DNA from: a virus
DNA length: 43,401 nucleotides
Virus record (IMG/VR): IMGVR_UViG_3300009370_000056
Location: 1 to 43,401 of that record
Reading direction: 5' to 3' (one strand)
In this document: positions 20,738-40,165 of the stretch, piece by piece
How the letters are laid out: each line of letters starts with the position of its first letter
Numbering within the stretch: position 1 is the stretch's first letter
Made by a program: the position numbers and the translations under genes
Notes under the pieces: generated by a model
Databases searched by the model: none
Seen by the model: the letters and a program-made list of their open reading frames with translations, nothing else
What the model was told of the DNA's origin: nothing

Positions 20738-20743
20738 AATATA
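20738..20743 (-). promoter_or_regulatory. Cassette-like -10 element without a -35
   Basis: TATATT with the TGTGT extension and 6 bp to ATG, but the -35 place holds part of the hairpin at 20751-20775. Either weak or dependent on a factor. Confidence 0.5.
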
Positions 20744-20750
20744 ACACACA

Positions 20751-20775
20751 GGGTGGGACATCCGTAGTCCCACCC
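20751..20775 (-). terminator. 3' hairpin with conserved loop, copy 1
   Basis: Perfect 9-bp stem GGGTGGGAC / GTCCCACCC just after the gene ending at 20787. The inner loop sequence ACATCCGTAG (plus strand) recurs at 21071-21093. No U-run follows. Confidence 0.55.
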
Positions 20776-20786
20776 CTTAAATTCTT

Positions 20787-21023
20787 TCATATCTCCATAA
20801 GTCCTGCGTCATACGCCTGAACCTCTGCATCACTCCACAGAGGGTGAAAGTCGGTGCGTCCGTCCTCGGTGTAAGCAAAAATCTCCGCTTTGAAGATAAT
20901 TGCTCCCTTTTCATAAGCGTCCAAAACTATCACTTGAGCTATCTCGATCAGCGTGTCGATATCGTCATGCCAAGCTAGTTCGGTGTCGCCTTGCATCAGT
21001 TTGTATGTGTGTTTGTATTCCAT
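20787..21023 (-). CDS. Hypothetical 78-residue protein
   Basis: GAAGGA is placed 8 bases before the ATG, a normal ribosome site. The protein is mixed alpha/beta, with a long hydrophobic helix (TLIEIAQVIVLDAYEKGAI) and an acidic C-terminus. Followed by a conserved-loop hairpin. No family recognised. Confidence 0.75.
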   Translation of the reverse strand: MEYKHTYKLMQGDTELAWHDDIDTLIEIAQVIVLDAYEKGAIIFKAEIFAYTEDGRTDFHPLWSDAEVQAYDAGLMEI

Positions 21024-21070
21024 TGTTTGTTTCCTTCTTTGTTTATGTCTGCGTACATTATCTCATAGAG

Positions 21071-21093
21071 GGTAGGACATCCGTAGACCTACC
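21071..21093 (-). terminator. 3' hairpin with conserved loop, copy 2
   Basis: Stem GGTAGG / CCTACC around ACATCCGTAGA. The stem differs from copy 1 by a paired change, while the loop is kept. It lies directly after the 25-residue membrane gene. Confidence 0.55.
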
Positions 21094-21095
21094 TG

Positions 21096-21173
21096 TTAAA
21101 TAGTTGCTAATCTAATGATAAGGCCCGCGCTAATGGCTACGATAAAGGCGAGGTCTATAATGTTGTCTTTCAT
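21096..21173 (-). CDS. Single-span membrane microprotein, 25 residues
   Basis: The ATG lies 6 bp after TATATT. After KDNIID comes one hydrophobic run (LAFIVAISAGLIIRLATI) to the stop. Too short for routine gene finding, but the strong promoter and the 3' hairpin frame it well. Function unknown. Confidence 0.6.
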   Translation of the reverse strand: MKDNIIDLAFIVAISAGLIIRLATI

Positions 21174-22733: not shown

Positions 22734-22780
22734 TGGCTTTCTTGAAAAAAGTTATCCACAGGCTGTGAGTAAGTTCTTAT

Positions 22781-22825
22781 AGTAAGTTGGCATGCGGCGT
22801 GCTGGCCGCTCGCTCACAAGTTACT
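22781..22825 (-). repeat. Cassette palindrome copy 3
   Basis: AGTAAGTTG / CAAGTTACT with one mismatch, GC-rich middle. Confidence 0.75.
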
Positions 22826-22924
22826 AAATAAAGGTAATGGGCCCTAAACGGCATCTGCCCACTCGCCGTCGGTGACCGCTGACAATCTTCGGGTTAAGCC
22901 CGTACCGTGCCAGTTATCCGCACC

Positions 22925-23038
22925 TTAAAGAGCCCGAGCGATTTCCCGCTCGGGAGGCCTTGATGCCGGGGTTTTTCGCCCGGGAAGTACCCGCTCTTAG
23001 TCCGTGAGCCGAGGGGAAGTCGGAATACCCTCACGAAC
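22925..23038 (-). ncRNA. Structured small RNA A
   Basis: A cassette promoter predicts +1 at 23038, and the RNA begins exactly with a 9-bp stem (GUUCGUGAG / CUCACGGAC). A shared 71-nt domain (22928-22998) follows: a closing stem AAGAGC / GCUCUU, a CCGGG / CCCGG hairpin and an 8-bp CCCGAGCG / CGCUCGGG hairpin, ending in UUU. No start codon or open frame follows the promoter. Length about 114 nt. Function unknown. Confidence 0.75.
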
Positions 23039-23044
23039 TACTAT

Positions 23045-23073
23045 AATATACCACAGGAGGGGGGTCTTGTCAA
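23045..23073 (-). promoter_or_regulatory. Cassette promoter of small RNA A
   Basis: TTGACA 23068-23073, 17 bp, TATATT 23045-23050, then ATAGTA and +1 G at 23038. There is no ATG at +1, unlike the protein-coding copies. Confidence 0.8.
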
Positions 23074-23108
23074 GGGGGTAGAGTGCATTTTTTTCATTTT
23101 TTTTTCGC

Positions 23109-23153
23109 AGTAAGTTGGCATCTGGCGTGCGGCCGCGCCGCCCACAACTTACT
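23109..23153 (-). repeat. Cassette palindrome copy 4
   Basis: Perfect 9-bp arms AGTAAGTTG / CAACTTACT with GCGGCCGC in the middle. Confidence 0.85.
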
Positions 23154-23156
23154 AGC

Positions 23157-23381
23157 AAAAAAGAGCCCGAGCGATTTCCCGCTCGGGGGGCCTTGGTGGC
23201 GGGGTTTCTCACCCGCGAAGTACCACACTCTTAAAATCGGTTGCCCATCCCCGCTTGAACTAGGGGCACGGCGTTGGCACTCCAGTAATTAGGCCTAGCC
23301 AACTGTTACGGCGTCGCTGGGTGGGGTCAGCTCCCGCTTAACGACCCCTAGCAAAGGGCCATCTCTAATCCTCGCGTTCAT
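23157..23381 (-). ncRNA. Structured RNA B with the same 3' domain as RNA A
   Basis: Starts at +1 23381 from a cassette promoter and ends at an 8-bp hairpin with UUUUUU. Inside are GUUGGC / GCCAAC and a 7-bp long-range CUAGGGG / CCCCUAG that competes with GGGGUC / GACCCC. The last 72 nt (23161-23232) repeat the RNA A domain, with the second hairpin changed from CCGGG/CCCGG to GCGGG/CCCGC, a compensatory change. It may be a pure RNA or the mRNA of the 28-codon frame at its 5' end. Confidence 0.65.
23295..23381 (-). CDS. Possible 28-residue leaderless peptide
   Basis: The RNA B transcript begins with ATG and stays open for 28 codons. The peptide is basic with no hydrophobic span. The region is also heavily structured, so the frame may be chance. 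Confidence 0.35.
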   Translation of the reverse strand: MNARIRDGPLLGVVKRELTPPSDAVTVG

Positions 23382-23387
23382 TGTTAT

Positions 23388-23416
23388 AATATACCACATA
23401 AAGGCCTATCCGTCAA
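23388..23416 (-). promoter_or_regulatory. Cassette promoter of RNA B
   Basis: TTGACG 23411-23416, 17 bp, TATATT 23388-23393, 6 bp to ATG at +1. TTATTCACA at 23425-23433 is in the reverse orientation. Confidence 0.8.
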
Positions 23417-26849: not shown

Positions 26850-27321
26850 ATGTGGGATGCTTCTTGTGAGGGTGCATCCCCAACCCACGACCACTTAGTT
26901 TATTCTGGTTGGCCGCTTAACCGCGTTTAGGCTTCTTACTCGCTCCAGTTGCCTTTTTACCTTTCGTTACCTGCCCGCGTTATTGCTGGCAGGGTGTGGT
27001 CTTGTTACCTCGCCACGGCTTCCCACATTACCGACAGAAGGATTACTTATCTGCGTCCGGTTGAGGCGAGGGTAAAATCAGGGTGTCAGGATTCGAACCT
27101 GACCCGACCAGTATCGTATCACCGTCTAGCTTCGTCGCGCTTCCACTAGGGGCTTTCCTGCGTCAGGCTGCGCTGCTGATCTTATTCAATCGCGCACCAA
27201 TTTCACCCTTCAAATGTGCCTCGTCCGTCACGCTGTCTCGCTTATGGCCTGTAACCCAGCACCACCTAGCTCAAGCGTAGGTTTCAGAGGACTTAAAATC
27301 TCTCTACTTCTCTCAAAGAAC
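26850..27321 (-). ncRNA. Large structured RNA C (~470 nt) with an embedded T-arm
   Basis: A cassette promoter predicts +1 at 27321 and a GGGAUGC / GCAUCCC hairpin with UUUU ends it near 26850. No long open frame is present. Visible helices: ACCUA/UAGGU (27264-27282), AGGGUG/CACCCU (27204-27209 with 27080-27085) closing a domain that holds UGCGC/GCGCA and a 6-bp T-arm with loop UUCGAAU (27085-27103), CCUCGCC/GGCGAGG (27008-27014 with 27065-27071), and CCUGCC/GGCAGG (26970-26993). The T-arm sits next to the acceptor-like 3' strand as in tRNA, but no cloverleaf or anticodon arm fits. Function unknown. Confidence 0.75.
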
Positions 27322-39570: not shown

Positions 39571-39583
39571 TATTTTTAAATAA

Positions 39584-39778
39584 TTATTCAGATTTAGAAA
39601 GTAAGGCTTCTATCTCTGATACGTTTTCTTTTACTGGAATTGCTCCTTGCTGCTCGAAAGCAACTTCCGTATATTTTTCGCCAAAATTATTTTCTGTTTC
39701 AGCAACGAAAAGAACATTGTCCCAATTAACTAATACAGTTTGACCAGAGCTATTATGCGTGAGTGTTATCATCTTCAT
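39584..39778 (-). CDS. FlbD-like 64-residue protein
   Basis: Begins MITLTHNSSGQTVLVNWDNVLF and ends IPVKENVSEIEALL, a small beta-rich fold with the VKExxxEI end of FlbD-like proteins. Likely a small regulatory or binding protein. The family link is by eye. Confidence 0.7.
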   Translation of the reverse strand: MKMITLTHNSSGQTVLVNWDNVLFVAETENNFGEKYTEVAFEQQGAIPVKENVSEIEALLSKSE

Positions 39779-39786
39779 ATTATAGT

Positions 39787-40143
39787 TTAATTTTTATTTT
39801 TATCAAGTTTCATTGTGCCTGTCCGTGAAAAAAGGTTTAGTATTAAACCGCTTAATGAGACATCGTGACAATTAAGGTGGATAAACGCTGGCGTGTATTC
39901 ACCGACATACGCCTGTGTCACATTAAAGTCCATATATTCTATGGCTTCGTCATAAGTCATGCCATCCCTGTTCATAAGAATATCAATACATTTTAAAAGG
40001 TCATAGCAAGCCTTCGGCTGACTTCCAAAGCTCTCTACAACACCAAGAAACGCATCCTCAAAACCATCTGCAAGAAGAATTTCGCTCATTGTGTCTGGGT
40101 AATGTGCTTCTAGGTATTCTAATATAGTGGGTGTAGTTTTCAT
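39787..40143 (-). CDS. Conserved phage protein, 118 residues
   Basis: The segment GMTYDEAIEYMDFNVTQAYV (with GEYTPAFI after it) is a pattern met often in phage genomes (EEAxEYxxFNxxxAYVGExTP). Role unknown. No ribosome site of note. Confidence 0.75.
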   Translation of the reverse strand: MKTTPTILEYLEAHYPDTMSEILLADGFEDAFLGVVESFGSQPKACYDLLKCIDILMNRDGMTYDEAIEYMDFNVTQAYVGEYTPAFIHLNCHDVSLSGLILNLFSRTGTMKLDKNKN

Positions 40144-40165
40144 TTTTTAATAAGTTTATCTTTCA

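Follow-up and report, generated by a model that had tools for sequence, protein, structure and literature searches.

The question raised by this locus is whether two similar structured domains, lying side by side on the minus strand of a viral DNA, belong to a family of phage small RNAs, and what sort of transcript carries each of them. The window, i.e. the whole stretch of DNA that was analyzed (one IMG/VR record, 43,401 bases long, 40% G+C), holds most of its phage genes on the minus strand, among them those for terminase, clamp loader, RIIA, RIIB and an endolysin-like protein. This uncultivated phage has rII genes of T4 type; its terminase has only distant matches (26% identity to the best one in other phages), and no named family was therefore assigned. 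By DNA comparison, nothing similar to the window was found in the phage collection. Relatives were found among IMG/VR contigs, namely G001 (73-82% identical in the larger matches), G011 (70-81%) and, further, G014, G015 and G016 (about 65-78% identical to the window). The two domains are referred to as A and B, and the transcripts predicted to carry them as RNA A and transcript B (Table 1).

Table 1. Positions of the features discussed; those without a contig prefix are in the window.
Feature	Position	Strand	Details
Promoter of RNA A	23045..23073	-	TTGACA-17-TATATT, extended -10 TGTGG; RNA-type start ATAGTAGTTC
RNA A	22928..23038	-	about 111-113 nt; predicted +1 G23038
P0 5' hairpin	23000..23038	-	GUUCGUGAG/CUCACGGAC, inner CCGA/UCGG; 9 bp
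Domain A	22928..22998	-	P1 AAGAGC/GCUCUU (22998-22993 with 22933-22928), P2 arm 22992-22955, P3 hairpin 22953-22934
Stretch of ~100 nt from domain A to cassette hairpin	22826..22927	-	TTTA at both flanks; absent in G001 and G011
Cassette hairpin 3' of RNA A	22779..22825	-	AGTAACTT...AACTTACT; repeat families D4, D6
Promoter of transcript B	23388..23416	-	TTGACG-17-TATATT, 10/12, sigma70-like, ORF type (TATATTATAACAATG)
Putative 28-codon leaderless ORF	23295..23381	-	start of transcript B, MNARIRDGPLLGVVKRELTPPSDAVTVG; frame read from sequence
Domain B	23161..23232	-	P1/P2/P3 as in domain A; U6 tail at 23162-23157
Cassette hairpin between B and promoter of A	23109..23155	-	AGTAAGTT...AACTTACT
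Copies of ~46-nt inverted repeat	20031, 21242, 22779, 23109, 23637, 25783, 27625, 29424, 30786		
P0-headed structured leader L272	G015:3758-3869	+	fold z -3.5
P0-headed structured leader L273	G016:37761-37896	-	fold z -3.0

The first-pass annotation had described two domains sharing one order of elements, and both are borne out on the minus strand, with 91% identity over the 65 nt compared (repeat family D12). Repeat comparison and a covariance model (R1) find only these two copies in the window, B scoring 76 bits with a model to which it had itself contributed. A pattern search of the IMG/VR contigs added two more members, one each in G001 and G011, which brings the copies so far to at least four, in three related phage contigs. 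The matches listed for broader patterns were filtered by structure, and among these only the true copies survived, with no additional one. Run on the relatives' contigs, the covariance model scored the known members and gave no new one; the domain was not found by it in G014, G015 and G016, i.e. its distribution is patchy and accessory. No match to Rfam 15 was obtained in the window at the gathering threshold, and at a permissive threshold the best match in the region was on the plus strand and far below threshold (E 0.28), with nothing for RNA A. BLASTN against phage and plasmid collections returned no match to RNA A, or short chance matches. A tRNA or tmRNA identity was rejected for RNA A by ARAGORN.

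RNAalifold, given the four sequences, models P1, a P2 arm and P3 as a compact three-way junction. P1 is AAGAGC/GCUCUU; the P2 arm pairs GGGU-(bulged A)-CUU with AAG-GCCU and continues through a 1x4 internal loop (C opposite CAYC) into CCGGG/CCCGG; and P3 is closed by a GAAA loop. The strands GGUACUUC and CAYCAAGG(CC), earlier taken to be free, are thus probably paired with each other in this model (GGU-(A)-CUU with AAG-GCC). The base changes reported between A and B, i.e. CCGGG/CCCGG against GCGGG/CCCGC in the inner P2 stem and C-G against U-G in the closing stem, are both real and keep every model pair. Two pairs are compensated, a C-G to G-C change in P2 between A and B, and a G-C to A-U change in P3 between A and G011, which accounts for the sole differences of the latter two sequences. 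All seven A/B substitutions keep every pair of the model (P about 0.002 under random placement, or about 0.001 when a compensated pair is also required), and the two A/G011 substitutions hit both partners of a single P3 pair (P about 0.002-0.003). Standard pairs occupy 143 of 143 scorable cells, as compared to 23-58% when the partners are slid by 1-3 columns, a contrast that is partly built in since the structure came from the same four-sequence alignment. Column-shuffle controls (25-30 of 500) were weaker, being limited by four sequences of which three are nearly identical. When sequences are folded singly, the minimum-energy folds retain P0, P1 and P3 and favor an alternative P2 arm by 1.5 kcal/mol (A, G001 and G011) or 4.0 kcal/mol (B), which makes this arm the least certain part. 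The U-G pairs of P0 (U3-G37) and of P1 in B exist only in minus-strand RNA, and this strand is therefore favored as the RNA. In all, the conserved secondary structure shows two compensatory pairs and no broken ones, in four sequences only.

Together, these data suggest that the domain defines a new family of phage small RNAs, apparently genuine though small. The family proposed in the first-pass annotation gains from the two further homologs, one with an independent compensatory change, and from the unit being self-contained, with no gene behind it. Claims on motifs conserved beyond the helices are not yet warranted in a family this tiny (four members in three contigs).

The promoter of RNA A is sigma70-like with an 11/12 consensus match, and the RNA has 61% G+C, as compared to 40% in the window. 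Out of 24 promoter matches in the window, 17 have an ATG 5-9 nt past the -10 element, i.e. with +1 at the usual spacing, most cassette promoters would give mRNAs without a leader. Many strong extended -10 promoters with an ATG at the predicted +1 occur on the minus strand between 19800 and 32460, which appears from its sequence to be an early region using leaderless mRNAs throughout. The RNA-type start is never that of a leaderless ORF, and the promoter of RNA A is without an ATG 5-9 nt past its -10 element. The same start is found at a large RNA (27321), at the homolog of the latter in G014, in G001 and at the P0-headed leaders of G015 and G016. With the +1 spacing of the leaderless ORFs, RNA A is predicted to start at the first base of P0, i.e. 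it has, as far as can be read from sequence only, a promoter of its own at its 5' end. The earlier proposal that RNA A begins exactly at its first stem holds in this sense, but P0 lies outside the shared three-stem domain. It precedes the domain in A, G001 and G011 and is missing in B, and its stem also heads the different leader RNAs in G015 and G016. The units in G001 and G011 match A in RNA-type start, P0 and domain, the G011 contig starting just before +1 with the promoter hexamers outside it. In both, a cassette hairpin comes right after the RNA, then the next promoter, with no downstream gene for the RNA to regulate.

Transcript B is different. Both promoters are indeed sigma70-like, as the first-pass annotation had it, but they are of different classes, and since the ORF-type promoter of B would start a putative 28-codon ORF, B is taken as a domain ending another transcript and not as a twin of A. 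In the 149 nt ahead of its domain, folding is not above that of shuffled sequence (z -0.31), and a search of the relatives gave no match to them. From its sequence, B is best read as the transcript of another cassette that has acquired the RNA A domain at its 3' end, and is probably a composite rather than a second copy of the RNA A gene. The notion of two sibling RNAs is thereby reduced to a common domain, in B without P0 and behind a promoter of the ORF type. A terminator of their own, likewise expected, is found in only two of the four members: the tails after P3 in B (UUUUUU) and G011 (UUUUUUU) are canonical and look like intrinsic terminators, but the U-tract is curtailed to UUUA in both A (UUU, then AAGG) and G001 (UUUAGUAACUUG). 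A terminator scan finds that of B only. The stretch behind domain A has a fold z-score of -0.28, and its flanks fit either its insertion into A or its deletion from G001, via the short TTTA repeat.

Between the cassettes, an inverted repeat of ~46 nt (AGTAAGTTGGCAT...ATGCCAACTTACT) recurs without a U-tract. The repeat may be the site of cassette recombination, because identity between the phages breaks inside it. The copies of RNA A in G001 and G011 are 98-99% identical to it (two differences in 112 nt for G011), as compared to 70-82% for matching genes of the same phages. The identity between A and G001 spans the promoter spacer and an upstream A-rich stretch and ends inside the flanking hairpins, beyond which the neighbors differ. 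As it covers spacers and not flanking genes, recent cassette exchange would account for it, at least in part. High identity as sole proof of selection was hence rejected, since it runs through the promoter spacer just as recent exchange predicts; the case for structural selection rests on the compensatory changes instead.

Additional RNA candidates occur in this group of phages. The large RNA mentioned above, a noncoding candidate of ~460 nt (26860-27321, minus strand) behind an RNA-type promoter, has a homolog in G014 (39576-40150, minus strand) that is 76% identical over the 3' two thirds. It carries a tRNA T-arm-like GUCAGGUUCGAAUCCUGAC, has no Rfam match (best E 1.7) and is neither tRNA nor tmRNA according to ARAGORN; possibly it is an ornate large RNA like GOLLD or ROOL, a membership that the Rfam models do not support. 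The two P0-headed leaders share a second domain, GCCAC/GUGGC with a covarying inner stem (CGGA/UCCG vs CAAACG/CGUUUG), and the ORFs that they precede differ and have no evident Shine-Dalgarno sequence. A G+C-rich region without an evident gene, L144:10620-10800 (minus strand), has CUACGCUUGA...GACAGCGUG in common with the large RNA. A hairpin such as GGGTGGGACATCCGTAGTCCCACCC occurs twice (75%), at 20740-20794 and 21059-21113 of the window (repeat family D16).

RNA A is probably, in our judgment and with moderate confidence, a stand-alone early small RNA gene of the phage, with predicted transcription and stability. A host-type sigma70 promoter would start transcription at the base of the perfect 5' hairpin P0, after which the RNA would fold into its compact three-way junction of P1, P2 arm (with bulged A and 1x4 internal loop) and P3. 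The latter, together with the U-run, would end the transcript, and as the U-run is partly re-paired in P1, both ends of RNA A would be protected. Its gene, like many other small early genes, would be an insert that is shuffled from phage to phage as a promoter-plus-hairpin cassette, and the RNA would act in trans on host or phage RNA or protein, in takeover or counter-defence. Behind this stand the sequence itself, the structure-preserving changes, the self-contained unit and the cassette context, from which we infer transcription, stability and action in trans; of the descriptions considered, a stable small RNA, made early and working in trans, is the most likely. When loops and linkers were searched against phage mRNA starts, antisense complementarity was not above that of shuffled sequence. 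With few free strands and no target signal in these mRNA starts, a protein partner is slightly favored over base-pairing.

A special case of this explanation is that RNA A serves as a decoy for a host protein involved in defence or RNA binding, its junction mimicking or titrating a host ligand. The strong early-type promoter, the compact fold, whose few free strands suit protein binding better than base-pairing, and the patchy, accessory distribution (no copy found in G014, G015 and G016) all agree with this, and we see it as a serious minority possibility, even though the Rfam search was negative and matched no known decoy RNA. The shared domain could also be a mere terminator and 3'-end stabilizer travelling with cassettes, RNA A being a short by-product, located between two cassettes, without a function in trans. 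In B and G011, P3 and its U-run form a canonical intrinsic terminator, domain B ends an ORF-type transcript, and PeSL (promoter early stem-loop) cassettes of T4-like phages join promoter and terminator, going by the title of Comeau et al. 2014 as cited in PMC4503421. P0, the P2 arm and P1 are unneeded by a terminator, yet kept, the domain is retained in A and G001 despite a damaged U-tract, and the other cassettes of the window do without it (two copies only); we regard this reading, too, as a minority possibility.

As for a cis-acting leader, i.e. a riboswitch or attenuator, the P0 hairpin does open structured leaders before two unrelated ORFs in G015 and G016, but no ORF separates the RNA from the next promoter in A, G001 and G011, and the absence of a downstream ORF in these three members speaks against such a role, which we regard as very improbable. 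Scarcely credible is a small protein encoded from the GTG at +5, with a frame open for more than 35 codons in all three of A, G001 and G011. An open frame of this length is not rare in so G+C-rich a sequence, all three substitutions among these copies alter the amino acid (two of them restoring a base pair), and an insertion shifts the frame in B; the micropeptide was accordingly rejected.

Under the preferred reading of RNA A as a small RNA gene, an RNA of ~110 nt with predicted exact ends, found in three related genomes and with two compensated pairs, is a concrete candidate for an RNA-based factor of takeover or counter-defence, and points to RNA genes, besides protein genes, on the early-gene cassettes that such phages shuffle. 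We advance only tentatively, as a doubtful extension, that there are distinct RNA cassettes, marked by ATAGTAGTTC instead of the leaderless-ORF start, which swap structured RNAs as others swap proteins, their contents (RNA A, the ~460-nt RNA and the P0-headed leaders) forming a modular takeover or anti-defence set.

To our knowledge, phage small RNAs known from outside the model phages are few. Like the trans-acting small RNAs of phages, RNA A is short, structured and predicted to have a promoter of its own, and its family has an intrinsic terminator in two of four members. RNA A matches no Rfam family. The stable RNAs C and D of T4 are small, stable and from the early region of an rII-bearing phage, and they are processed products of a tRNA cluster. 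RNA A is likewise small and belongs to the early region of an rII-bearing phage, but has its own predicted promoter and no tRNA neighbors, a comparison made by description only. Lastly, the cassettes can be compared to the PeSLs of T4-like phages, as these are portrayed in PMC4503421 and PMC3950731 (after Arbiol et al. 2010; Comeau et al. 2014). Repeated units of an early sigma70-type promoter and a stem-loop occur between small accessory genes in both, here with family D2 (14 copies of the promoter repeat) and a number of AGTAAGTT hairpins, and the flanks of the shared unit vary between relatives, consistent with shuffling. The hairpins here, however, have no U-tract, the transcribed strand being A-rich and not U-rich after them, and the terminator scan was negative for them; lacking terminator features, the cassettes are PeSL-like rather than PeSLs. 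A further difference from PeSLs as portrayed there is that most promoters here drive apparently leaderless ORFs, and that some cassettes hold an RNA instead of protein genes.
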